This document shows, in pieces, positions 39,695 through 53,089 of a DNA stretch of 62,242 nt. Position 1 is the stretch's first letter; each line of letters begins with the position of its first letter. The notes beneath the pieces are model-generated. The model saw nothing but the letters and a program-made list of their open reading frames with translations, had not been told where the DNA came from and ran no database searches. The stretch comes from Bacteroidota bacterium. GTDB lineage: Bacteria; Bacteroidota; Bacteroidia; Bacteroidales; VadinHA17. The stretch is taken from contig JAAYDB010000118.1 in NCBI GenBank assembly GCA_012729475.1, positions 1 through 62,242 of the forward strand, in the 5' to 3' direction. The position numbers were made by a program, and so were the translations under genes.

Positions 39695-40483
39695 ATGCAC
39701 ACATTAAATGATTTACGACTGGCTGTGTTGATAGATGCAGACAATATCCCCTATTCCAACATAAGAGGTTTACTTGAAGAGATAGCCAAATACGGCACCC
39801 CAACTTTTAAGAGGATCTATGGTGACTGGACGAAGCCTACAATATCAGGCTGGAAGCCTGCTTTGCTGGAAAATGCCATCACACCTGTACAGCAATACAG
39901 TTATACCAGGGGTAAAAACTCGACAGATTCTGCAATGATTATTGATGCGATGGATATCCTTTACTCGGGTAAGGTAGATGGATTCTGTATTGTTTCTAGC
40001 GACAGTGATTTCACAAGGCTTGCCACAAGGCTAAGAGAGGCCGGGATGAAAGTTATAGGTATTGGAGAAAAAAAGACTCCATCTCCTTTTATTGTTGCCT
40101 GTGATAAATTTATCTATCTTGAAATAATCAGTTCATCTGTTTCCGGACAGGAGACACAAACCACAAAAGAAAAAAGCAAAAAAACAGGACGGGATACCAA
40201 AAAAAATGAAGAAGCTGAGCAACAGCAGCAGGTAAAAAAAGCTAAGCGCCTTATTTCAAGCTCAATAACAGACGTAGCTGACGATAATGGATGGGCATAT
40301 CTGGGAGATGTAGGTAACCTGATATTAAAAAAACAACCTGACTTTGATCCACGTAACTTTGGTTTTACAAAGCTCACCCCATTAATTAAATCGTTTGATT
40401 ACGAGATAGATGAAAGAGATTCAGGACAAAATAACATTAAACATATATATATCAGAATAAAAAAACAGTCCGGTGGGAACTGA
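39695..40483 (+). CDS. NYN-domain ribonuclease-like protein with OST-HTH/LOTUS domain
   Basis: Residues about 8-150 are a NYN (LabA/DUF88, PIN-like) domain with acidic motifs LIDADN (Asp14, Asp16), DSAMIIDAMD and SDSDFTRLA. After a Lys/Gln-rich charged linker (about 155-185) comes an OST-HTH/LOTUS module (DDNGWAYLGDVGNLILKKQPDFDPRNFGFTKL-type segment, about 200-258). This pairing is known in bacteria and eukaryotes and is thought to act on RNA. The linker is unusually basic. It is followed by RRM and cold-shock genes on the same strand, suggesting an RNA-handling neighbourhood. Confidence 0.9.
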   Translation: MHTLNDLRLAVLIDADNIPYSNIRGLLEEIAKYGTPTFKRIYGDWTKPTISGWKPALLENAITPVQQYSYTRGKNSTDSAMIIDAMDILYSGKVDGFCIVSSDSDFTRLATRLREAGMKVIGIGEKKTPSPFIVACDKFIYLEIISSSVSGQETQTTKEKSKKTGRDTKKNEEAEQQQQVKKAKRLISSSITDVADDNGWAYLGDVGNLILKKQPDFDPRNFGFTKLTPLIKSFDYEIDERDSGQNNIKHIYIRIKKQSGGN

Positions 40484-40623
40484 CAACAGGCTTTCTTTGA
40501 GTATAATGGACATAAAAAGTCAAAAAGAGACTAAAATTCAACATATTGTAATTTATTTCTTTTTTGTTTAGAAAAAAAACATGACCTTTGATATTGCTTT
40601 AATAACACATTAATTATTGAATT

Positions 40624-40941
40624 ATGAACATTTATGTCGGAAGTCTTAATTTTAAAATGAAAGAAGAAGAATTAAGAGAACTATTTGAAGAGTATGGAGA
40701 AGTTGCATCTGCAAAGATCATTTTTGATAAATACTCTGGGAAAAGTAAGGGATTTGGCTTTGTTGAAATGCCAGATGATAATGAAGCCAAGAAGGCAATT
40801 GAAGAACTTAACGGGTCTGAAATACAGGGACGAAACATCATCGTCAATGAATCGATTGAAAGATCTGAAAGGAGAAGCAACTTCAGGGGTGGAGATGATA
40901 ACCGCAGGGGACGTGACCCGGGTAGAAACAGGTACAGTTAG
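40624..40941 (+). CDS. RNA-recognition-motif (RRM) RNA-binding protein
   Basis: 105 residues: a single RRM with RNP2 IYVGSL (3-8) and RNP1 KGFGFVEM (about 41-48), then an Arg/Gly/Asp-rich tail (NFRGGDDNRRGRDPGRN). Such single-RRM proteins occur in Bacteroidota and Cyanobacteria, often cold-induced. It lies 21 bp upstream of a cold-shock gene and is very probably co-transcribed with it up to the terminator at 41181. Confidence 0.95.
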   Translation: MNIYVGSLNFKMKEEELRELFEEYGEVASAKIIFDKYSGKSKGFGFVEMPDDNEAKKAIEELNGSEIQGRNIIVNESIERSERRSNFRGGDDNRRGRDPGRNRYS

Positions 40942-41277: not shown

Positions 41278-41988
41278 TTAAAACCTTCCGAATATTGAAT
41301 ATTTCTTTGTGTTACAGTATATAGAAGAATACAGAAACAGAACAGGATTATTTGTTTCCAGTTTTCTTTCCAGATGAAGTACCGGCTCTCCCTCCTCAAG
41401 CCTGAGGTAACGACCTGTCTTCCCCAATGCAGGAATAGCTTTAATCCTTTGCTCCCCTCCTGTCACTTCAATATGATAATGAGTCCTTAGTATATGAAAC
41501 AATGATTTGTTCTCAAACTGGCGCGATGTTATTCTTGGAAGGTTAATATTTGCTATGTAACTGATATCATAAAAGATCGGAACTTCATCAAGAAGACGGA
41601 GTCTCTCCATATATATACAACCTGATTCTTTTTCCATATCACTCAGCACAAACATAAAATCATCATCCCAGGGGACAAGCACCGGTTTTACTATCATTCT
41701 GGTTTTCAGGTTACGGTCACCTACAGCGGAAGTTGTTCCTGATACCGATAATATGCCTATGTCACGCGGTAAACGATGCACTATACTGCCCTTCCCCTGA
41801 TGCTTCCGTATGTATCCGTCATTGGCAAGAGTGCTTAATGATTGCCTGACTGTAGGCCGTGTCATTCCATATATCTGACATAATTCATTCTCCGATGGAA
41901 GCAAATCTCCTTCTTTATATATCCCTTCTGTTATATGCTTACGCAGGATATCATATAATTTTTTATGCCGGGGAATATTCGTCCGCAA
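41278..41988 (-). CDS. GntR-family (HutC/UTRA) transcriptional regulator
   Basis: 236 residues: an N-terminal winged helix (about 8-70; LPSENELCQIYGMTRPTVRQSLSTLANDGYI) and a C-terminal UTRA ligand domain (about 90-230; SGCIYMERLRLLDEVPIFYDISYI). HutC/YvoA-type proteins bind sugars, sugar phosphates or amino-acid derivatives and usually repress neighbouring catabolic genes. The gene is divergent from the 2-oxo acid dehydrogenase operon, and the 184-bp intergenic region contains palindromic sites placed over the operon promoter, so it very probably controls that operon. Confidence 0.9.
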   Translation of the reverse strand: MRTNIPRHKKLYDILRKHITEGIYKEGDLLPSENELCQIYGMTRPTVRQSLSTLANDGYIRKHQGKGSIVHRLPRDIGILSVSGTTSAVGDRNLKTRMIVKPVLVPWDDDFMFVLSDMEKESGCIYMERLRLLDEVPIFYDISYIANINLPRITSRQFENKSLFHILRTHYHIEVTGGEQRIKAIPALGKTGRYLRLEEGEPVLHLERKLETNNPVLFLYSSIYCNTKKYSIFGRF

Positions 41989-42023
41989 AACAAGCTGTTT
42001 TTGCGTAAATATATTACTTATAT

Positions 42024-42037
42024 CTTGTAATTACAAG
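42024..42037. promoter_or_regulatory. Candidate GntR operator, perfect 14-bp palindrome
   Basis: CTTGTAATTACAAG is a perfect palindrome. It contains the TTG (42025-42027) that serves as the -33 element of the forward promoter and extends just past it, so a bound dimer would block RNA polymerase. The 11-bp core TAATTACAAGT (42028-42038) recurs at 42112-42122 in the leader. Confidence 0.65.
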
Positions 42038-42055
42038 TTATATTATATATTTTTG
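42025..42055 (+). promoter_or_regulatory. Promoter of the catabolic operon, TTG-N20-TATTTTTG
   Basis: TTG at 42025-42027, 20-bp spacer, TATTTTTG at 42048-42055, which fits the Bacteroidota TTG-N19/20-TAnnTTTG consensus. Predicted transcription start near 42062, giving a leader of about 110 nt before the E2 ATG at 42173. Confidence 0.6.
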
Positions 42056-42101
42056 TATTAACTGATCCATAATCATATAAATTATATTCTGACTATTTTT
42101 C

Positions 42102-42127
42102 TTCTTACATATAATTACAAGTAAGAA
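42102..42127. promoter_or_regulatory. Second candidate GntR site in the operon leader
   Basis: TTCTTAC (42102-42108) and GTAAGAA (42121-42127) are inverted repeats around a 12-bp AT-rich centre. The right half includes TAATTACAAGT (42112-42122), identical to the core of the palindrome at 42024. It lies downstream of the predicted transcription start and could act as a road-block or looping partner. Confidence 0.5.
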
Positions 42128-42172: not shown

Positions 42173-43420
42173 ATGGCAACACCGGTAATAATGCCTAAAC
42201 AAGGGCAATCAGTTGAAAGCTGCATAATAACCCGATGGTTTAAGAACACAGGTGACAGGGTAATAAAAAACGACATTCTTCTTTCATACGAGACCGACAA
42301 GGCTGCCTTCGATCTTGAATCTCCTGCTGATGGCATTCTTCTTGAGATATTCTTCGGCGAAGGCGACGAAGTGCCTGTATTACAAAATATTGCAGTAATA
42401 GGCAAAAAAGGGGAAACAACAGATTTCTTCAATCCCTCTGCCGGAATAAGCAGTAAAGAAAAGTCTCGGGAGACAACAGAAGAAAGAAAAAAGGAATTAC
42501 ATGCATATTCAGCCGTAAGGGTATCTGATGCTCCTATACCCCGGGGTGATAAAAGAATAAGGATATCTCCAAGGGCCAGATGTCTGGCTGAGGAGAATAA
42601 AATAAGCATTGATCAGCTCACCGGCAGCGGACCAAATGGCAGGATCACAGTAAGGGATGTGGAAACTTTTCTTTCCGGCTCTACAGAAGAGGGAATCAAT
42701 TCATTTTCAATAGCCTGTGATTATACAGACCAGCCTTTGAGCAATATACGGAAGCTGATTGCAAGGACAATGCATGCCTCATTACAGAATTCTGCCCAGC
42801 TGACTCACCATATGAGTGCCGATGCCAGAAACTTGCTTAAGGCCCGGATAACTATCAAGGAGAATATTTCCACAGTTTCAGGCCGGCAGGACATCTCTCT
42901 TAATGACATGGTCTGCTGGTGTGTTATAAAAGCCCTGAAGAAATTTCCATCTGTCAACAGCCATTTTCTTGGCGAGACTATCAGACTCTTCAATAATGTA
43001 CACCTGGGTGTTGCCGTTGATACGCCCAGAGGCTTAATGGTCCCTGTTGTAATGAAAGCCTGCAGTATGGACCTCAACCGTCTTTCCGAAGAGATAGCTT
43101 CTCTGGCTGAAGCCTCCAGAAAAGGAAGTATCAGTCCGGAACTGATCCAAAGCACTTCTGCTTCATTCACTGTTTCCAACCTTGGCAGTTACGGAGTAGA
43201 GATGTTTACTCCGGTAATTAACCTTCCGCAGACAGTCATCCTTGGAGTGTGCACAATAATAAACCGTCCTGCAGATCTGGGAAACAATACTTACGGCTTC
43301 GTTCCATACATTGGCCTTTCTTTGACATACGACCACCGGGCTGTTGACGGAGGACCTGCATCACTGTTCCTGAAAGAAATAAAAAAACAAATCGAAAATT
43401 TCAAACTTGAGATTTTTTAG
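42173..43420 (+). CDS. Lipoylated E2 acyltransferase of a 2-oxo acid or acetoin dehydrogenase complex
   Basis: 415 residues in the classical order: lipoyl domain (1-80) with lipoyl-lysine Lys43 (YETDKAAFD), peripheral-subunit-binding domain (about 130-165; ISPRARCLAEEN), and catalytic acetyltransferase domain (about 190-415) with DHRAVDGG (His388, Asp392). It transfers the acyl group made by E1 to CoA. It opens the operon and ends 47 bp before the fused E1 gene. No E3 (dihydrolipoamide dehydrogenase) is in the window, so E3 must be shared with another complex. Confidence 0.92.
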   Translation: MATPVIMPKQGQSVESCIITRWFKNTGDRVIKNDILLSYETDKAAFDLESPADGILLEIFFGEGDEVPVLQNIAVIGKKGETTDFFNPSAGISSKEKSRETTEERKKELHAYSAVRVSDAPIPRGDKRIRISPRARCLAEENKISIDQLTGSGPNGRITVRDVETFLSGSTEEGINSFSIACDYTDQPLSNIRKLIARTMHASLQNSAQLTHHMSADARNLLKARITIKENISTVSGRQDISLNDMVCWCVIKALKKFPSVNSHFLGETIRLFNNVHLGVAVDTPRGLMVPVVMKACSMDLNRLSEEIASLAEASRKGSISPELIQSTSASFTVSNLGSYGVEMFTPVINLPQTVILGVCTIINRPADLGNNTYGFVPYIGLSLTYDHRAVDGGPASLFLKEIKKQIENFKLEIF

Positions 43421-43467: not shown

Positions 43468-45936
43468 ATGCCAAAAAATCAGAGTCTCATCCCGCAGATC
43501 ATCAGGAGACCCCAGTTTATTGAATTCGGAAAAATACCTGTCAACCAATACAATAAAACCATTGAAGAAGAAAGGGATAATTTCAGTAACGACGATCTGG
43601 TCATGATATACCGTGACATGGTTATTATCAGGGAGTTTGAGAGCATGCTCAACCTTATAAAAACCACGAATGAATATAATGGGATCATTTACAACCATCC
43701 CGGACCTGCTCATTTATCAATCGGGCAGGAGGCTGCTTCAGTAGGGATGGCATACCATCTTGGAGTGGATGATTATATTCTGGGGTCACACCGCAGTCAT
43801 GGGGAGTTACTGGCTAAAGGTCTGTCAGCCATACACAAACTGGATGAAGATACACTTTATTCCATAATGAAAAACTATTTCAGGGGTAACGCTTTAAAGG
43901 TTGTTGAGAAGGGTCACGCGGGCAATATTAAGGATCTTGCTGTTCATTTTCTTTTGTACGGTGCTCTTGCGGAAATATTTGCCAGGGAAAATGGTTTCAA
44001 CAAAGGCCTTGGAGGTTCAATGCATGCATTTTTCACACCATTTGGTATCTATCCCAATAATGCCATTGTAGGAGGTTCCGGTGATATATCTGTTGGCGCA
44101 GCCTTATATAAAAAGATAAACAAAAAACCGGGTATTGTGGTATGCAATATCGGAGATGCTTCAACAGGTTGCGGCCCTGTATGGGAAGGCATCTGTTTTG
44201 CCACCATGGATCAGTACAGGACACTGTGGGAAGGTGAATACAATGGAGGCCTACCTCTCATTTTCAACTTTATGAATAACCTGTATGGAATGGGTGGTCA
44301 GACAATGGGTGAAACAATGGGGTTTGGCATACTGGCGAGGTTGGGTGCCGGCGTTAATCCTGAAATGATGCATGCAGAACGTGTCGACGGCTATAATCCG
44401 CTGGCTGTCATTGATGCCTTCCGGAGAAAAATAAAAATACTGAGTGAGAAAAAAGGACCTGTCCTGCTTGACACTCTTACATACAGGATCAGCGGACATT
44501 CACCTTCAGATGCATCATCATACAGGTCAAAAGATGAAATTGAAGCATGGGAGAAAGAAGATTCAATCCTCTCTTACGGCAGTTCACTTATAAGAACGGG
44601 TATAGCGCATCAGGACCAACTTGACACTATTCAGAATGAGACAGGTAAACTGATGACCCACATACTCGGACTGGCAGTGGATGATAAAGTATCTCCGCGT
44701 ATTGACCTCATTAATGATTCTGACGCTATTGGCAGAATGATGTTTTCTAATTGTTCTGTTGATAAGATGGAAGAGCGGGCACCTGAAGTACTGATTCCAA
44801 TGGAGGAAAATCCAAGAGTTAAATCTATTGGCAACAAAGTGAGATATTATAAAGACAAAGATGGCAGGGATGTCTCCAAAACCAGAATTTTTCAGTTGCG
44901 TGATGGTATTTTTGAAGCTGTTATTGACAGGTTTTATAAAGATCCCACTTTTGTTGCCTGGGGAGAAGAGAACCGTGACTGGGGTGGTGCCTTTGCCGTA
45001 TACCGGGGTCTAACAGAAGCTCTTCCCTACCACAGACTTTTCAATTCTCCTATCTCTGAAGGAGCTATAGTAGGAACAGCGATAGGATATGGTATGTGTG
45101 GAGGCAGGGTCATTGCCGAAATAATGTATTGTGATTTTCTTGGCAGATCGGGTGATGAAGTTTTTAACCAGCTCCCCAAATGGCAGTCCATGAGCGGCAA
45201 CCTCATCAAAATGCCGGTTGTCATAAGGGTCTCCGTCGGATCAAAATACGGTGCACAGCATTCTCAGGACTGGTCATCTCTCACAGCCCATATCCCGGGT
45301 CTTAAAGTAGTGTTCCCGGCTACACCCTATGATGCAAAAGGTCTTATGAATTCAGCCTTACAGGGAACTGATCCGGTGATCTTCTTCGAGAGTCAAAGGA
45401 TATATGATAAAGGTGAAATGTTCCATGAAACTGGTGTCCCCGAAGGATATTATGAAATACCTTTCGGAGAACCCGATATAAAAAGAGAGGGTAAAGATAT
45501 TACCATATTGTCCATTGGAGCTACACTGTATCAGGTATTGAAAGCAGCTGATATCCTCCGCGAACAATATGGATTGAGTACTGAAATAATTGATGCGCGA
45601 ACACTGGTTCCCTTTAACTATACCCCTGTAATTGAATCAGTTAAAAAGACAGGGAAAATTGTTTTTGTCAGCGATGCTTCTTCAAGAGGATCATTTATCA
45701 AAGAGTTAGCTCAGTCAGTAACAGAACTGGCCTTTGACTATCTTGATGCTCCTCCTGTTACCATAGGGTCGCGTAACTGGATAACTCCGGCATATGAGAT
45801 GGAACAATTCTTTTTCCCCCAGCCTGAATGGATACTGGATGCTATTAATGAGAAAATAACACCTCTAAAGGGGCATAAATCCCGTCATGATTATTCTTCT
45901 GAAAAAATAATCTTACTGAATAAAGAGGGGGTCTGA
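43468..45936 (+). CDS. Fused alpha-beta E1, thiamine-diphosphate-dependent 2-oxo acid/acetoin dehydrogenase
   Basis: 822 residues join E1-alpha (about 40-400) and E1-beta (about 475-815) in one chain. Alpha carries GSHRSHGE (His108, His111), GDASTGCG (Gly229-Asp230) and the downstream Asn of the ThDP/Mg site, plus the phosphorylation-loop-like ISGHSPSDASSYRS. Beta carries VAWGEENRDWGGAF and YGAQHSQDWSSL. Bacterial E1 enzymes of the pyruvate, branched-chain and acetoin types mostly use separate alpha and beta subunits. The substrate is not fixed by sequence: pyruvate-like 2-oxo acids or acetoin-like acyloins are candidates. Located between its E2 and sugar-type genes. Confidence 0.9.
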   Translation: MPKNQSLIPQIIRRPQFIEFGKIPVNQYNKTIEEERDNFSNDDLVMIYRDMVIIREFESMLNLIKTTNEYNGIIYNHPGPAHLSIGQEAASVGMAYHLGVDDYILGSHRSHGELLAKGLSAIHKLDEDTLYSIMKNYFRGNALKVVEKGHAGNIKDLAVHFLLYGALAEIFARENGFNKGLGGSMHAFFTPFGIYPNNAIVGGSGDISVGAALYKKINKKPGIVVCNIGDASTGCGPVWEGICFATMDQYRTLWEGEYNGGLPLIFNFMNNLYGMGGQTMGETMGFGILARLGAGVNPEMMHAERVDGYNPLAVIDAFRRKIKILSEKKGPVLLDTLTYRISGHSPSDASSYRSKDEIEAWEKEDSILSYGSSLIRTGIAHQDQLDTIQNETGKLMTHILGLAVDDKVSPRIDLINDSDAIGRMMFSNCSVDKMEERAPEVLIPMEENPRVKSIGNKVRYYKDKDGRDVSKTRIFQLRDGIFEAVIDRFYKDPTFVAWGEENRDWGGAFAVYRGLTEALPYHRLFNSPISEGAIVGTAIGYGMCGGRVIAEIMYCDFLGRSGDEVFNQLPKWQSMSGNLIKMPVVIRVSVGSKYGAQHSQDWSSLTAHIPGLKVVFPATPYDAKGLMNSALQGTDPVIFFESQRIYDKGEMFHETGVPEGYYEIPFGEPDIKREGKDITILSIGATLYQVLKAADILREQYGLSTEIIDARTLVPFNYTPVIESVKKTGKIVFVSDASSRGSFIKELAQSVTELAFDYLDAPPVTIGSRNWITPAYEMEQFFFPQPEWILDAINEKITPLKGHKSRHDYSSEKIILLNKEGV

Positions 45937-45997: not shown

Positions 45998-46771
45998 ATG
46001 ATAGAAAAAATAAAAGCGAAAAGAGGGTTCATCATCGACATGGATGGTGTTATATACCACGGCAACAGGCTCTTACCCGGCGTTACCGCTTTCATTGAAT
46101 GGATGGAAAATAACGGAAAGGAGTATCTTTTCCTGACTAATTCCAGTGAAAGGACTCCTAAAGAGCTTCATGAGAAACTTAAGAGACTGGGGTTAAAGGT
46201 AAATGAGGATCACTTTTATACCAGTGCTTTGGCCACAGCTGGTTTTCTTGCCAGTCAGACCCCCAATGGCAGTGCTTTCATAATAGGCGATGCAGGGCTT
46301 ATTCATGCATTGTACAGTGCCGGGTACACTATGAACAATGTGAATCCCGACTATGTTGTTGTGGGAGAAACGCACGGGTACAACTTTGAGAAAATAGAGA
46401 TTGCAGTAAACCTGGTAATGAAAGGGGCCCGGCTTATAGGAACAAACTCTGATGTAAGCGGCCCTATAGAAGATGGTATTACTCCGTCTACAAAGGCCCT
46501 TATCGCTCCAATTGAAATAGCTACCGGGAAAAAAGCCTATTTTGTTGGTAAACCAAATCCTTTAATGATGAGGATAGCTTTAAAAAACCTGGGAGTAAAG
46601 AGAGAGGAAGCTGTAGTCATTGGCGACCGTATGGATACAGACATAAGATGCGGTCTGGAATCAGAAATTGATACACTTCTTGTTCTAAGTGGTATAACAA
46701 ATGAAGAAGATATTGATAAATTCCCTTATCGTCCCCATTTTGTTCTTAACGGACTTATTGACCTCATTTGA
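45998..46771 (+). CDS. NagD-like HAD-IIA phosphatase
   Basis: 257 residues: motif I DMDGV (Asp18, Asp20), motif II LTNSSERTP, the conserved Lys in GKPNPLMM, and motif III GDRMDTDI. HAD-IIA members (NagD, phosphoglycolate phosphatase, AraL, PNPase) dephosphorylate sugar phosphates or nucleotides. In this operon it may release a phosphate from a pathway intermediate or remove a toxic side product. The stop overlaps a TTG of the next frame, but that gene more likely starts 11 bp further on. Confidence 0.9.
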   Translation: MIEKIKAKRGFIIDMDGVIYHGNRLLPGVTAFIEWMENNGKEYLFLTNSSERTPKELHEKLKRLGLKVNEDHFYTSALATAGFLASQTPNGSAFIIGDAGLIHALYSAGYTMNNVNPDYVVVGETHGYNFEKIEIAVNLVMKGARLIGTNSDVSGPIEDGITPSTKALIAPIEIATGKKAYFVGKPNPLMMRIALKNLGVKREEAVVIGDRMDTDIRCGLESEIDTLLVLSGITNEEDIDKFPYRPHFVLNGLIDLI

Positions 46772-46782
46772 AAATCACACTT

Positions 46783-47445
46783 ATGAAAGGAAGGCTCAGG
46801 TATAAAAATGAGCGGAAAGAAGTTGCCCGTTTCATGCGCCGTCTATACAGGCAGGGGCTGACTACCACGTCGGGTGGAAATATCAGTAAACGTCTCACTG
46901 ATGATGTTATACTGATAACTCCTTCTGCCACTGACAAGGGTAAGATGAAATGGAAAGAGGTAGGTATTGTTTCAATAAAAGGCCGTAATCTCACTCCCGG
47001 CATTAAGCTTTCCATAGAATCTACTTTACATCTCGGTATATACAAAAAGAATCCTGAGGTATCAGCTGTCATCCATGCCCATTCTGTTTTTGCTTCTTCT
47101 TTTACTGCAATGGACACAGAAATAAACACATGCCTTACTGCCGAGGCTCGTGTTATATGCGGGAAACCCATGTTTGTCCCCTATAAATTAATGGGGACAC
47201 CTGAACTGGCAGCCTGTGTTGCTGACAATTCAGTTCTGGCGGATGTTCTTCTTCTGGAAAACCACGGCATAATAACTTTTGGTAACAGTCTGCTCAATGC
47301 CTTCGACAAACTTGAAGTTCTTGAAAATGCTGCCAAAATGACTCTGATAACAAAAATGACGGGAAACATCAGGGAAATGAGTTCTTCACAGGTACAGGAA
47401 ATAGACAGACTGTATGGCCACAGAAAAAAAATAACACAAACATAA
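46783..47445 (+). CDS. Class II (zinc) aldolase, FucA/AraD family
   Basis: 220 residues from the ATG at 46783 (an in-frame TTG at 46768 overlaps the previous gene). TTTSGGNISKR contacts the substrate phosphate in this family, Glu79 (SIESTLH) is in the catalytic position, and the zinc ligands His98 and His100 (VIHAHS) and His in LLENHGI are present. It should cleave or form a keto-sugar-1-phosphate to dihydroxyacetone phosphate plus an aldehyde, or act as the epimerase variant. Fuculose-, rhamnulose- or ribulose-type substrates cannot be separated by eye. Tightly linked to its neighbours (11 bp each side). Confidence 0.9.
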   Translation: MKGRLRYKNERKEVARFMRRLYRQGLTTTSGGNISKRLTDDVILITPSATDKGKMKWKEVGIVSIKGRNLTPGIKLSIESTLHLGIYKKNPEVSAVIHAHSVFASSFTAMDTEINTCLTAEARVICGKPMFVPYKLMGTPELAACVADNSVLADVLLLENHGIITFGNSLLNAFDKLEVLENAAKMTLITKMTGNIREMSSSQVQEIDRLYGHRKKITQT

Positions 47446-47456
47446 ATATTAATATT

Positions 47457-48455
47457 ATGAACAAAAGAAAACTGGGAAGATCCGATCTTCAGATAACTGA
47501 AATAGCTTTCGGGGCCTGGGCCATAGGTGGCTGGCAATGGGGAGGAGCTGATGCAAATGATGCCATTAAGGCTGTTGAAACTGCTATTGACCACGGAATG
47601 ACTACTATAGACACTGCTTCAGTCTATGGTTTTGGTTTGAGTGAAGAGCTGGTTGGGAAAGCCGTAGCAGGAAAGAGAGATAATGTTGAGATACTCACAA
47701 AATTCGGTATGTCATGGGATGAACCTAAAGGTTCTTTTTTCTTCACATCAAAAGATAATTCAGGTAAGACAGTTGATATCTATAAGTATTCTTCAAAAGA
47801 AAAAGTATTGAAGGATTGTGAAGATAGTCTGCGGCGTCTTAAAACCGATTATATAGATCTCTTCCAGATACACTGGCCTGACCCTACTACTCCTGTTTCC
47901 GAAACAATGGAAGCTTTGGAAATTCTTGTAAGTCAGGGAAAGATACGAGCAGGAGGAGTGTGTAACTACTCGTCGGATCTGCTGATTGAAGCTTCCGGCA
48001 ATTTCACTGTTGCTTCCAATCAGGTGCCTTACAGTATGGTCAGACGTGAGATTGAAAAGGATATCGTTCCTATCTGTCTTGAAAAAAACATTGGCATACT
48101 TGCCTATTCTCCAATGCAACGCGGATTATTGACCGGAAAATTTAAACCAGGGCATGTCTTCAGAGAAGGAGACAGCAGACCTGACACAGCTTATTACAAG
48201 GAACCTAATTTTTCTGAAATAATGAAATTCCTTGAAAAGATAAAACCTGTAGCAGAGGGGTATAAAGCTACATTATCCCAACTTGTTCTCAACTGGACAA
48301 TTCAACAGCCGGGAATAACCTGTGCCCTGGCTGGTGCAAGAAATGCAGAACAGACAATGGAAAACATAGGAGCTGCAAACTTTAACATCAGTTCTTCTGA
48401 TATAAGCTTAATAAATACTTATCTGTCAGAAATGGTTATAGACACAAACATCTGA
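47457..48455 (+). CDS. Aldo/keto reductase
   Basis: 332 residues with the AKR tetrad Asp52, Tyr57 (DTASVYG), Lys82 (LTKFG) and His139 (FQIHWPDP), and the NADP-binding loop late in the barrel. The N-terminal NKRKLGRSDLQITEIAFGAW is usual for the group including YajO and L-glyceraldehyde/methylglyoxal reductases. In this operon it may reduce the aldehyde product of aldol cleavage. The next gene starts 123 bp later. Confidence 0.92.
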   Translation: MNKRKLGRSDLQITEIAFGAWAIGGWQWGGADANDAIKAVETAIDHGMTTIDTASVYGFGLSEELVGKAVAGKRDNVEILTKFGMSWDEPKGSFFFTSKDNSGKTVDIYKYSSKEKVLKDCEDSLRRLKTDYIDLFQIHWPDPTTPVSETMEALEILVSQGKIRAGGVCNYSSDLLIEASGNFTVASNQVPYSMVRREIEKDIVPICLEKNIGILAYSPMQRGLLTGKFKPGHVFREGDSRPDTAYYKEPNFSEIMKFLEKIKPVAEGYKATLSQLVLNWTIQQPGITCALAGARNAEQTMENIGAANFNISSSDISLINTYLSEMVIDTNI

Positions 48456-48578
48456 CACTTCTATATGACTTTTTCGTACAGGCATTGTCAAAATAAATAT
48501 CCTCTTGTGTCAATTATTCTGCCTGATGGCACATGTTATCCTATCAACAAAATATAAATTTTAAAACAGTATTGTATA

Positions 48579-49820
48579 GTGAAAAATAATTTTTTAAAAG
48601 ATTTCCCCTGGTACAATGAGTTAAAACAATGTATGAACGGGAATTCATCCCCTCCTTACAGAGAAACAAACAGTCACATTCACACTCCATACTCGTTTAG
48701 TTCATTTGATAGTATGGATACTATTTTTTCAATGGCCCTTAATGAGAATATCTCAGTGCTTGGCATCAATGATTTCTTTGTCACTGACGGATATGAAGCA
48801 TTCCATAATGGCTGCCTGGAAAACAATATTTTCCCACTCTTTAATATTGAATTCATTGGTTTGCTGAAAGCAGAACAGAAAAAGGGCATCAGGATCAATG
48901 ATCCGAATAATCCCGGACGAGTTTATTTCTGTGGTAAGGGACTTGATTTCCCTCATAATCCCGGTCTGATCCATAAATTGACTCTTCAGAAAATTAAAAA
49001 AGAATCCCAGAATCAGATTAAGGTTATGATAAACAAGCTTAACGGCCTTATGGAATCAATTGACAAGTCGGTTACTTTAAGTTATGATAATGTAAAAAAC
49101 AAATATGCAAAAGGACTGGTACGTGAAAGACATCTTGCCAAAGCGGTCAGGCAACTGGCTGTTGATAATTACAGCACCCCTGACGAGCAAATAAGATTTA
49201 TTGAAGCACTCTATGGAGGGAAAAAATCAAAATTCCCTGTCGATGAAAGTGTTTTTCTTGAAAATGAGATAAGATCTAATCTGCTGAAGGCAGGAGGAGT
49301 CGCTTATATTGAAGAAAATAACAATTCTTTTCCTGAACTGAAAAAGATCATCAAATTAATAACCTCTTTGGGGGGTATACCTTGTTATCCTGTTCTTCTT
49401 GATGACCCATCCGGTAATTTGACCGAGTTTGAAAATGATGCAGAGAAACTTCATTCGGCTCTTTCTTGCATCGGAATAGGATGTATTGAACTCATTCCCG
49501 GACGTAATGATCTTTCAGTCCTGAAAGATTTTGTCAGCTTCTTTGACAGTAAGGGCTATCTTATAACTTTCGGAAGCGAACATAATACACCGGAACTGGC
49601 TCCACTGACTATTACTGCCCGTGGTTCAGTACCTCTTGATGAAACGCTTAAAGAAATAGCCTGGAACGGAGCCTGTGTTATTGCTGCTCACCAATATTTA
49701 AGGGCACACGGCCGTCAGGGATACGTTCTGACTGACGGGAGACTGAGTATAGAACAAAAAGAAGATCTTACAGAACTTGGAAAAAATGTTATTGAATATT
49801 ATCTAAACAAAAGGAATTAA
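48579..49820 (+). CDS. PHP-domain metal-dependent hydrolase-like protein
   Basis: 413 residues from a GTG start. The PHP metal site is visible: His33 and His35 (NSHIHTPYSF), Asp65 (LGINDFF), Glu near 91 (FNIEFIG), and a late GSEHNTPE and IAAHQYLRAHG. An insert of about 100 residues sits between them. PHP enzymes hydrolyse phosphate esters or other bonds; the group seen beside rhamnose-like aldolase genes has no firm function to my knowledge. The 3' end shares one base with the next ATG (TAATG), so the two are coupled. Confidence 0.8.
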   Translation: MKNNFLKDFPWYNELKQCMNGNSSPPYRETNSHIHTPYSFSSFDSMDTIFSMALNENISVLGINDFFVTDGYEAFHNGCLENNIFPLFNIEFIGLLKAEQKKGIRINDPNNPGRVYFCGKGLDFPHNPGLIHKLTLQKIKKESQNQIKVMINKLNGLMESIDKSVTLSYDNVKNKYAKGLVRERHLAKAVRQLAVDNYSTPDEQIRFIEALYGGKKSKFPVDESVFLENEIRSNLLKAGGVAYIEENNNSFPELKKIIKLITSLGGIPCYPVLLDDPSGNLTEFENDAEKLHSALSCIGIGCIELIPGRNDLSVLKDFVSFFDSKGYLITFGSEHNTPELAPLTITARGSVPLDETLKEIAWNGACVIAAHQYLRAHGRQGYVLTDGRLSIEQKEDLTELGKNVIEYYLNKRN

Positions 49821-51796
49821 TGAATCAGTATATCAAAGACCTGACTGATATCTCAAGGTTCTACGGAGCAAGCATGGATTATGTGATAGCTGGTGGAGGC
49901 AATTCTTCTTACAAAGATGATAAGACTCTGTGGATAAAAGCCAGCGGAGAAGCTCTTGCAGAGCTTACAGAGGAAGGTCTGGCAGTTCTTGACCGTGATA
50001 AACTGAAAAAGATATCAACTGAAAAATACTCAGATGATCCATTGGCGCGCGAAGAACAGGTTAAAAACGACCTCTACGCCAGTATTCTTGATCACTCAAA
50101 GGGGAAAAGGCCATCAGTCGAAACTTCTCTGCATGATCTGATCCGTTACCGCTTCGTTGTCCACCTTCATCCTTCGTTAATAAATGGCATCCTGTGCAGC
50201 CGGAATGCGAAGAATATTATTTCGCAAATCTTCGGAGAAAAGGCTCTTTTCGTCACTTATACCGATCCCGGCTATACACTCTTTAAAAAGCTGGAAACAG
50301 AAATAACAGAGTTCCGGAAAAATTTCTCATCCGATCCGAAAATGATCTTTCTTGAGAATCATGGTGTTTTTGCTGCAGCTGACACTACCGAAGAGATCAG
50401 GGAAATATACGATAATATCTTCAGCAAAGTTGAAGAGAGGACAGAACGTCTCTCAAACATACAGGAGCTCCCTTACAACTCAGTATTGCACAAAACATTA
50501 CCAGGGATACGAATGCTCCTGACAAAAGACAGGATCAAGATTATACGGCACCGTCACAACACCCTGATCTCAAAATATTATTCCAGTCAGCAGAATTTTC
50601 ACAATATATCATTGCCTCTTATACCTGATGTCATTGTGTATTGCAAAGCCAGATATCTGTATATTGATCAATCGTCAACAGCTGACAGGATACTGGAATC
50701 TCTCAGGATACAGCTCTCCAGGTTTAAAAACGAATACGGCTATCTCCCAAAAATAATTGTCATAAAAGATATGGGAGTATTTGCCGTAGAGGAGAGTGTT
50801 GGCGCAGCAGAAACGGCACTTGATGTTTTTGAAGATAATATCAGGATATGCCATTATGCTTTGCAGTGTGGAGGAATAAAATTTCTTACGCCTGAACAGA
50901 CTGATTTCATTGACAAATGGGAAGTGGAAAACTACAGGAGGAAAGCGCTTAAGCCAGTGAGTAGCAAAAGCAGGCTGGAAAACAGGATAGCTGTCATAAC
51001 AGGTGGAGCCCGGGGCTTAGGAGAAGGCATTGCCTCCTCCTTATTCAGTCTCGGTCTTAATATTGTAATTGCTGATGTTAACGATGAAGCAGGACATGAT
51101 CTTGTTTCCCGGCTTAACAGTACAGAAAACTCAAAGAACAGAGCTGTTTTCATCAACACAGATGTCAGTGATCCGGGTTCTGTCAGTGACCTTATCTTTC
51201 ATACTGTAAAAGAATTCGGAGGTCTCGATATCATGATCAGTAATGCAGGTATATTAAAAGCCGGAGGTCTTGATGAGATGGAACCGGACGTGTTCATAAA
51301 AACCACCGGTATCAATTACAATGGTTATTTCTACTGTGCCAAGTACGCCTCTGAAGTAATGAAGCAGCAAAATCAGGAAAAACCTGACTATTTTACTGAT
51401 ATTATTCAGATCAATTCCAAGTCTGGTTTGCGTGGCAGTAAAAAGAATTTTGCTTATTCAGGGGGGAAATTCGGGGGAATAGGATTGACTCAGTCCTTTG
51501 CTCTTGAACTGGCTCCCTTCAGGATCAAAGTCAATTCTATTTGTCCGGGCAATTTTTATGAAGGTCCCTTATGGTCGGATCCCCTCAACGGACTGTTCGT
51601 TCAGTATCTGAAAACAGGTAAAGTCCCCGGAGCTAAAAACATTGATGATGTCAGGAAATTTTACGAAGATCAGGTACCGATGAAAAGAGGCTGTAAAATG
51701 GAAGATATCCTAAAGGCTTTGTTATATGTTATTGATCAGGAATATGAGACAGGCCAGGCTGTCCCTGTTACAGGAGGGCAGCTGATGCTGGGATGA
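49820..51796 (+). CDS. RhaD-like bifunctional class II aldolase / short-chain dehydrogenase
   Basis: 658 residues: N-terminal class II aldolase domain (about 1-370) with GGGNSSYK, zinc-type HLHPSL (His115, His117) and LENHGVF (His181), then an SDR domain (about 388-658) with VITGGARGLGEG, NAG and catalytic YSGGK (YxxxK). This is the fusion known for rhamnulose-1-phosphate aldolase/lactaldehyde dehydrogenase. It would cleave a ketose phosphate and oxidise or reduce the aldehyde. The operon already has a separate class II aldolase, so two cleavage steps or two substrates are implied. Confidence 0.9.
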   Translation: MNQYIKDLTDISRFYGASMDYVIAGGGNSSYKDDKTLWIKASGEALAELTEEGLAVLDRDKLKKISTEKYSDDPLAREEQVKNDLYASILDHSKGKRPSVETSLHDLIRYRFVVHLHPSLINGILCSRNAKNIISQIFGEKALFVTYTDPGYTLFKKLETEITEFRKNFSSDPKMIFLENHGVFAAADTTEEIREIYDNIFSKVEERTERLSNIQELPYNSVLHKTLPGIRMLLTKDRIKIIRHRHNTLISKYYSSQQNFHNISLPLIPDVIVYCKARYLYIDQSSTADRILESLRIQLSRFKNEYGYLPKIIVIKDMGVFAVEESVGAAETALDVFEDNIRICHYALQCGGIKFLTPEQTDFIDKWEVENYRRKALKPVSSKSRLENRIAVITGGARGLGEGIASSLFSLGLNIVIADVNDEAGHDLVSRLNSTENSKNRAVFINTDVSDPGSVSDLIFHTVKEFGGLDIMISNAGILKAGGLDEMEPDVFIKTTGINYNGYFYCAKYASEVMKQQNQEKPDYFTDIIQINSKSGLRGSKKNFAYSGGKFGGIGLTQSFALELAPFRIKVNSICPGNFYEGPLWSDPLNGLFVQYLKTGKVPGAKNIDDVRKFYEDQVPMKRGCKMEDILKALLYVIDQEYETGQAVPVTGGQLMLG

Positions 51797-51826
51797 CATC
51801 ATGCCATTAAAATCATTTATTATATA

Positions 51827-53089
51827 ATGAAAACCAAAGCAGTAAGAATCTATGGAAAAAAAGATCTCAGACTTGAGGAATTTGAGCTGCCTCCCATGCA
51901 GGAAGATGAGATACTTGCTCAGGTAATATCCGACAGTCTTTGTATGTCGTCATATAAAGCTGCACAGCAGGGGTCTGATCACAAACGTGTTCCCCCTGAT
52001 ATAAGCATCAATCCAACTATTATAGGTCATGAGTTTTCAGGGATCATTCTGGATGTAGGTAAAAAATGGCAACATAAGTTCAGTAAAGGGCAAAAATTCT
52101 CTATTCAACCTGCCATGCCTCAGACAGGATCCCTGGATGCTCCCGGTTATTCTTTCCGTTATACAGGAGGAGATGCTACTTATATAATCATCCCTGATAT
52201 TGTTATGAAAGCCGGCTGTCTGCTTCCTTATGAAGGAGAGGCTTTTTACCCGGCTTCTCTCTCAGAACCAATGTCGTGCATAATAGGTGCTTTCAATGCC
52301 AGCTATCATACCCGTCCGGGAACATACAGGCATATCATGGGAATAAGGCCCCACGGCAGGATGGCTATACTTGCAGGTGTAGGGCCGATGGGGCTCGGAG
52401 CTATTGATTATGCTGTTCACCGTGACATAAGGCCTGAGCTACTTGTTGTTACCGATATAGACAATAACAGACTGATAAGAGCAGCCAGGCTCTTTTCACC
52501 TGAACATGCAGCTGAAAGAGGAGTAAAACTTGTATATGCCAATACCGGAGGGATAACGGACCCTGTGAAATATCTCCTGGAAATATCAGGAAATAAGGGT
52601 TATGATGATGTTTTTGTATTTGCTCCGGTAAAAAGTGTTATTGAGCAGGGTGATGCTATTCTCGGCTTTGACGGATGCCTGAATTTTTTTGCCGGTCCGT
52701 CCAGCACTGACTTCCGGGCAGAGATGAATTTCTATAATGTACATTATTCATTTACCCATATAACAGGCACATCGGGCGGAAATACCGATGATATGATAAA
52801 GTCACTTGATCTGATGAGTAATGGACAAATTAATCCTGCTGTAATGATAACTCATGTTGGAGGTCTGGATTCAGTTATCCCGGCAACACTTAATCTTCCC
52901 AATATACCAGGAGGGAAAAAACTGATCTACACTAACATTTCACTGCCACTGACAGCCTTGACTGACCTTCCTGAACTGGGGAAAAATGACCTTTTGTTTT
53001 CGGGCCTCAACGAAATTGTTTCGGGAAATAACTTTATCTGGTCTGTTGAAGCAGAAAAATATCTCCTGGCAAATGCACGTCCAATCTGA
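51827..53089 (+). CDS. Zinc-type dehydrogenase, SorE-like (L-sorbose-1-phosphate reductase family)
   Basis: 420 residues of the medium-chain dehydrogenase family. Catalytic-metal residues are Cys39 (DSLCMS), His68 and Glu69 (IIGHEF). The four-Cys structural zinc loop of classical alcohol dehydrogenases is missing. The N-terminus (KTKAVRIYGKKDLRLEEFEL) and the GKKWQHKF and HIMGIRPHG segments match enterobacterial L-sorbose-1-phosphate reductase (SorE) as I recall it. It would interconvert a ketose phosphate and an alditol phosphate with NAD(P). It ends the forward run of the operon. Confidence 0.88.
   Translation: MKTKAVRIYGKKDLRLEEFELPPMQEDEILAQVISDSLCMSSYKAAQQGSDHKRVPPDISINPTIIGHEFSGIILDVGKKWQHKFSKGQKFSIQPAMPQTGSLDAPGYSFRYTGGDATYIIIPDIVMKAGCLLPYEGEAFYPASLSEPMSCIIGAFNASYHTRPGTYRHIMGIRPHGRMAILAGVGPMGLGAIDYAVHRDIRPELLVVTDIDNNRLIRAARLFSPEHAAERGVKLVYANTGGITDPVKYLLEISGNKGYDDVFVFAPVKSVIEQGDAILGFDGCLNFFAGPSSTDFRAEMNFYNVHYSFTHITGTSGGNTDDMIKSLDLMSNGQINPAVMITHVGGLDSVIPATLNLPNIPGGKKLIYTNISLPLTALTDLPELGKNDLLFSGLNEIVSGNNFIWSVEAEKYLLANARPI

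Follow-up and report, generated by a model that had tools for sequence, protein, structure and literature searches.

For the divergently transcribed gntR and E2 genes of the window (the whole 62,242-nt stretch of Bacteroidota DNA analysed here), we propose that an autoregulated GntR/HutC divergon is the likely arrangement: a palindromic operator (site 1) at which the repressor would shut both promoters, and a weaker operator (site 2) that would loop to it. The palindrome, between gntR and what is by type a sugar operon, is very probably where the GntR repressor lands. Repression by the divergent GntR protein via two sites had been suggested in a sequence-only reading of this DNA, and comparative genomics supports most of this interpretation, the site pair following the gntR/E2 divergon across species. 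Our proposal draws on the sites, the promoter geometry and their conservation, spacing and uniqueness as read from the sequence. By position in the window, the features are as follows.

41278..41988, minus strand: gntR, GntR winged helix plus UTRA sensor domain (HutC subfamily), TTG start
42005..42013, minus strand: -7 element of the gntR promoter, TATATTTAC, 20 nt from the TTG at 42036-42034
42023-42038, strandless: site 1, predicted primary operator, TCTTGTAATTACAAGT; genus consensus ACTTGTAAATACAAGT; one -33 TTG in each arm, for E2 and for gntR
42025-42027, plus strand: -33 TTG of the E2 promoter, TTG-N20-TATTTTTG
42034..42036, minus strand: -33 TTG of the gntR promoter, same dyad, N20
42048..42055, plus strand: -7 element of the E2 promoter, TATTTTTG, a TAnnTTTG at fixed offset in relatives
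42107-42122, strandless: site 2, predicted auxiliary operator, ACATATAATTACAAGT, in the E2 leader, 84 bp from site 1; genus consensus ACTTATAATAACAAGT
42173..43420, plus strand: E2, with lipoyl, E3-binding and 2-oxoacid dehydrogenase acyltransferase domains; first gene of the operon
43468..45936, plus strand: E1 alpha-beta fusion, operon gene (domain scan and solved-structure search)
45998..53089, plus strand: rest of the presumed operon, namely HAD-IIA phosphatase, class II aldolase, aldo-keto reductase, PHP-like protein, aldolase-SDR fusion and zinc-dehydrogenase-like protein

The N-terminal part of the gntR product matches the GntR winged helix (PF00392, 6.8e-17, 61.3 bits against a cut-off of 27) and the C-terminal part matches UTRA (PF07702, 4.7e-22, 78.8 bits against a cut-off of 23.8). 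NagR/YvoA is the best match among solved structures, and DasR is also among the matches. In this genome, which is 97% complete, gntR is the only PF00392 match detected. Two loci (L171 and L172, in genomes G061 and G067) carry a second GntR paralogue, 54% identical; at L171 it stands next to an E2 of its own, together with a perfect ACTTGTAATTACAAGT. Upstream of gntR, at 39695-40941, lie two genes which we take by eye to be NYN-like and RRM-like. Both are also found within ~6 kb of gntR in relatives, the RRM-like gene in nine of the eleven named contigs examined.

The names given to the operon enzymes are family assignments. Relatives preserve the synteny of the operon, although some lack individual members, and wherever E2 and E1 were both found they are adjacent; the one exception is Geofilum (L056), where 1.4 kb separates them. 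Neither the solved-structure searches (E1, PHP-like and zinc-dehydrogenase-like proteins) nor the family scans named a substrate. For the operon enzymes scanned, all but the PfkB-like one, no NCBIfam equivalog model reached its cut-off among the matches listed (at most 25 per list); the HAD protein passed an NCBIfam subfamily model. The operon member at 48579-49820, with sub-threshold PHP similarity and no solved relative, is present in operons outside the genus too.

Relatives came from three sets: named genome contigs (28 loci, mostly metagenome assemblies), 62 genomes of the same genus, 55 of them with a gntR match at 1e-60, and 393 genomes of the order, 48 of them with a gntR match. Together these sets comprise 106 loci with distinct gntR surroundings. 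For the spacing analysis, the 55 same-genus genomes minus G030 and G073, which fell below the identity cut and were handled apart, left 53 loci, and 51 after removal of L003 and L169, which have no site 1. A smaller site set comprised 42 loci, and the anchored alignment 40 (L003 and L058 dropped). The same-genus loci share descent.

Positions 42024-42037 of the window form a perfect palindrome of 14 bp, CTTGTAATTACAAG. The copy of site 1 found here departs slightly from the relatives' consensus ACTTGTAAATACAAGT. At up to two mismatches the 12-mer occurs six times in the window against 6.12 expected, and its exact form twice in the 2.97-Mb genome, so that the pattern alone is not decisive and relatives are needed: conservation among them, not the pattern in the window, decides whether this putative operator is real. 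Of the 55 same-genus genomes in which gntR was matched, 51 have site 1 beside it; two of the other four were unreadable, and two have site 1 at E2, away from gntR. At 12 of its 16 positions, 50 or 51 of the 51 same-genus loci agree, part of this agreement being selection, as the set was chosen at a minimum of 15 of 16 matches. Among the 53 loci such a site is lacking only in two that cannot be read there, L003, which has an assembly gap, and L169, whose contig begins within gntR. Ten of all 106 loci are without a site of at least 12/16; three of these are poorly readable (L003, L169 and L186), and in the other seven E2 was likewise not found beside gntR. The palindrome has GT and AC 4 nt apart (CTTGT-AATT-ACAAG, conserved in relatives), the distance given for most HutC sites in the accessible part of PMC4494728.

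The position of the palindrome over a -33 element, claimed in the sequence-only reading, holds for the E2 promoter, whose TTG (42025-42027) lies in the left arm and is followed by exactly 20 nt and then by TATTTTTG at 42048-42055. The geometry of the proposed TTG-N20-TATTTTTG promoter recurs in relatives: TTG-N20/19-TAnnTTTG is found in 74 site-promoter pairs among the 106 loci, and the distance from the first base of the operator 16-mer to TAnnTTTG is 25 nt in 58 of them and 24 nt in 16. This fixed offset identifies the left arm as the -33 TTG of the operon promoter. The earlier claim was incomplete in that it missed the right arm, whose TTG is by the same dyad the -33 element for gntR: in 54 site-promoter pairs the opposite strand shows TAnnTTT at offset 25, as a mirror image. 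The two divergent promoters are thus symmetrical about the operator dyad, and a single bound dimer would cover the -33 element of each. At the gntR -7 position GTAAATATA is conserved in the anchored alignment of 40 loci, and the final bases of TATATTTAC in the window depart from TAnnTTTG.

According to the accessible part of PMC7366714, TAnnTTTG at -7 and TTTG near -33 are the elements of sigma-ABfr promoters of Bacteroidota. The E2 promoter resembles this type, with TATTTTTG conserved at a fixed offset as its -7 element and, 20 nt before it, a -33 region that reads CTTG, one base short of TTTG. We infer that the E2 transcript starts near 42059-42062; for gntR the predicted start is near 42000. 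The stretch at 42063-42079, at or just past this predicted start and ~42 bp from each operator, is moderately conserved (TGATTTATAATAAGAT-like in relatives). A third operator halfway between the two (+42; up to 6.8 bits with the site-2 model) is not claimed, being not palindromic by eye and lying over the predicted start region.

In two groups of relatives the operator is placed elsewhere relative to the -7 element. It starts 9 bp after the -7 start, off the -33, in L106, L145, L148, L154, L175, L179 and L057, where it would thus block the promoter at another point. In L104 and L140, two operators 95 bp apart straddle the -7 element, an arrangement that resembles gal.

The second site was recognised from the 11-bp core TAATTACAAGT, which stands at 42028-42038 and recurs 84 bp downstream at 42112-42122, within a near-perfect inverted repeat (TTCTTACATATAA and TTACAAGTAAGAA, 42102-42127), as the sequence-only reading had correctly stated. 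With a leave-one-out PWM, site 2 was accepted in 49 of the 51 loci, at 84 bp (24 loci), 83 bp (22), and 85, 74 and 73 bp (one each). The two others are L122, where the contig ends, and the degenerate L131, which has a half site only, at 84. In G069, which is outside all spacing counts, the site pair is present at a spacing of 85 bp and gntR is cut by the contig end. A PWM from site 1 alone was run on 46 of the 51 loci, short downstream regions being dropped; its best downstream match fell at 83-85 in 43 of them, at 74 in one, and at 54 and 128 in the two exceptions. Among 920 mononucleotide shuffles, 24 scored at least as high as the observed match. Over the same-genus loci the spacing has an SD of 2.1 bp, compared with 28 bp for the distance from the gntR start to site 1 and 62 bp for that from site 2 to E2. 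Of 49 loci, 48 carry A at position 5 of site 2, the corresponding base of site 1 being G in 51 of 51, and we regard site 2 as a predicted operator that is consistently weakened, in its left half; in L136 and L181 the second site is a perfect 16-mer.

Spacings of 83-85 and 73-74 bp correspond to about eight and seven helical turns, which favours looping as the predicted mode of action. Within the genus set, none of the accepted copies of site 2 departs from the others by 2-9 bp. In the GntR tree, in which some supports are low, the 74-bp locus lies among relatives with 83-84 bp and the 73-bp loci lie nearer the clade base, which makes it likely that the spacing changed by about one turn at least twice. 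Outside the genus we found spacings of 84 bp (f39 and f65), 85 bp (f43), 73 bp (f44) and 95 bp (f23), and also of 75, 82-83, 88-91, 96-102, 107-119, 142-167 and 225 bp; a search over the 106 loci showed no strict helical phasing for the order as a whole. Given this non-uniform spacing, exact phasing is a property of the genus and its near relatives, and most of the 83-84 values are inherited, not independent. Some pairs outside the genus have the strong site near E2 and the weaker one near gntR, an order which suggests that those pairs may be separate sites. For the genus and its near relatives, we assign moderate confidence to looping as predicted from these spacings.

Two independent sites would do without a loop if site 1 blocked initiation and site 2 served as an elongation roadblock or a weak reservoir. 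This reading is unlikely, although it accommodates both the position of site 2 inside the predicted transcript and the inconsistent phasing outside the genus. A roadblock, however, needs no spacing fixed at 83-85 bp with accepted departures only to 73-74 bp in the genus; much of the sequence between sites 1 and 2 is poorly conserved in the anchored alignment.

According to our preferred proposal of a looped switch, the UTRA-domain repressor would bind as a dimer to site 1 (16 bp), where each arm doubles as a -33 element, one for E2 and one for gntR, and would shut the two back-to-back promoters in direct competition with RNA polymerase. A second dimer would bind the weaker site 2 in the E2 leader, at about +49 to +64. 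With the two sites roughly a whole number of turns apart, the dimers could touch in a short loop and so repress the catabolic operon more tightly. The repressor would be released when an intermediate from the pathway of this operon binds UTRA; by analogy with NagR, this may be a phosphosugar. Taken one step further, palindrome and promoters may form a single object in this part of the Bacteroidota, in which the arms are the -33 boxes of mirror-image promoters that polymerase uses one side at a time, and in which a persistently weak leader operator at whole turns adds a loop to what would be simple occlusion and makes a lineage-tuned switch of it; we offer this tentatively, as slightly short of an even prospect.

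The palindrome had further been expected to serve for finding a regulon, and the whole-genome scan did not bear this out: at up to three mismatches, the 16-mer search of the own genome gave no sites in excess of the reversed-pattern control (35/31 against 38/37). Off-locus sites with one mismatch numbered 11 in 36 same-genus genomes, against 16 for the reversed pattern. Three of the 11 were inspected (G023:C12, G025:C119 and G022:C154) together with the exact 12-mer on C185 of the own genome, and all four lie inside open stop-to-stop frames of at least 100 codons. The perfect 16-mer (WW centre) is present exactly once in 27 of the 36 genomes, next to gntR in 26 and with E2 in G030, and four more genomes, the source genome included, have a one-mismatch form at the locus. 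We rejected a wider regulon on these counts. With a sole detected GntR-family gene and a perfect operator occurring once in 27 of 36 genomes, the predicted regulon is probably the divergon alone.

The remaining five of the 36 genomes comprise G003, with an assembly gap at the locus, G004, whose contig ends 78 bp before E2, G024 and G033, which have neither a gntR nor an E1 match, and G031, in which E2-E1 is kept and gntR was not detected (genome 77% complete). Upstream of E2 in G031 we found TAnnTTTG and another long open frame, and no operator (best 11/16); repressor and operators may have been lost jointly here (L194, L201). Where gntR lies ~18 kb from E2 (G030; L107/L108) or on another contig (G073; L168/L200), site 1 stays with E2 and site 2 is not recognisable.

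Since binding by GntR is a prediction here, the sites might instead be bound by a regulator of another family acting on both genes. This is very improbable, as the motif is of HutC form, co-occurs with this gntR and has the genome's only detected GntR-family gene divergent to it. Some GntR proteins act as activators, but an operator that covers the -33 element and the leader occupies positions expected to occlude polymerase, which makes a role of GntR mainly as activator or anti-repressor of the E2 promoter highly doubtful. That site 2 is an RNA hairpin or another mRNA leader element and not a DNA operator can hardly be right: in the window it lies in a 7-bp stem (-4.9 kcal/mol), but this stem is local to the window, folding of 46 site-2 regions (median z +0.33) supported no structure over them, the inverted repeat beyond the 16-mer is not conserved (flank pairing 2.45/6 over 49 loci against 2.27/6 at shifted controls), and the site itself is an operator variant, perfect in two loci.

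The proposed switch is of a known and ordinary type, the GntR/HutC divergon with double sites, of which it is a well-conserved example. No earlier description of this regulator, operator or operon was found in the literature, judged by titles and abstract beginnings. NagR/YvoA and DasR, also of the GntR/HutC group, share the two-domain architecture and are repressors released by an effector. Their operators and ligands are different, and their regulons are wider. HutC divergons with double sites at near-constant distance have been described by comparative genomics, in the accessible part of PMC4494728; they have in common with the present locus a HutC-type GntR, a divergent regulator and operon, GT-N4-AC palindromes, and a distance between the two intergenic sites that hardly follows intergenic length. 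In our genus this distance is constant while the intergenic length varies; it is not constant across the order. Unlike those divergons (PMC4494728), the present one has its strong site on both -33 elements, a weakened second operator in the leader, and promoters of the Bacteroidota type.

For AraR, a GntR-type protein, in-phase double-site looping is established according to the available text of PMC4218819. The protein described here shares with AraR of Bacillus subtilis, which acts at araABDLMNPQ-abfA, araE and abf2, a GntR-type DNA-binding domain and a related palindrome; in AraR, two in-phase operators and a small DNA loop give strong repression (PMC4218819), and a similar arrangement is predicted for our locus. 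AraR moreover has eight boxes in several promoters, where the regulon here appears to be one locus (PMC4218819), and a LacI-like effector domain (PMC4666351), in place of which the present protein carries UTRA, setting it apart from AraR orthologues. Within the Bacteroidota, FucR and ManR of Bacteroides thetaiotaomicron are comparable as GntR regulators of single sugar pathways, the predicted FucR regulon being one operon; their pathways are different, and the likeness is one of description, not of sequence (accessible part of PMC3878776).

For the study of promoter architecture, the divergon offers a clean set of natural variants from a phylum for which our literature search gave few dissected repressors, with one operator type traceable across many species together with its promoters, a series of spacings and apparent loss. 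It yields an exact looping prediction for Bacteroidota, in which insertions of a full turn would be set against those of a half turn, and it provides an operator-based label for the 2-oxoacid dehydrogenase/aldolase operon.
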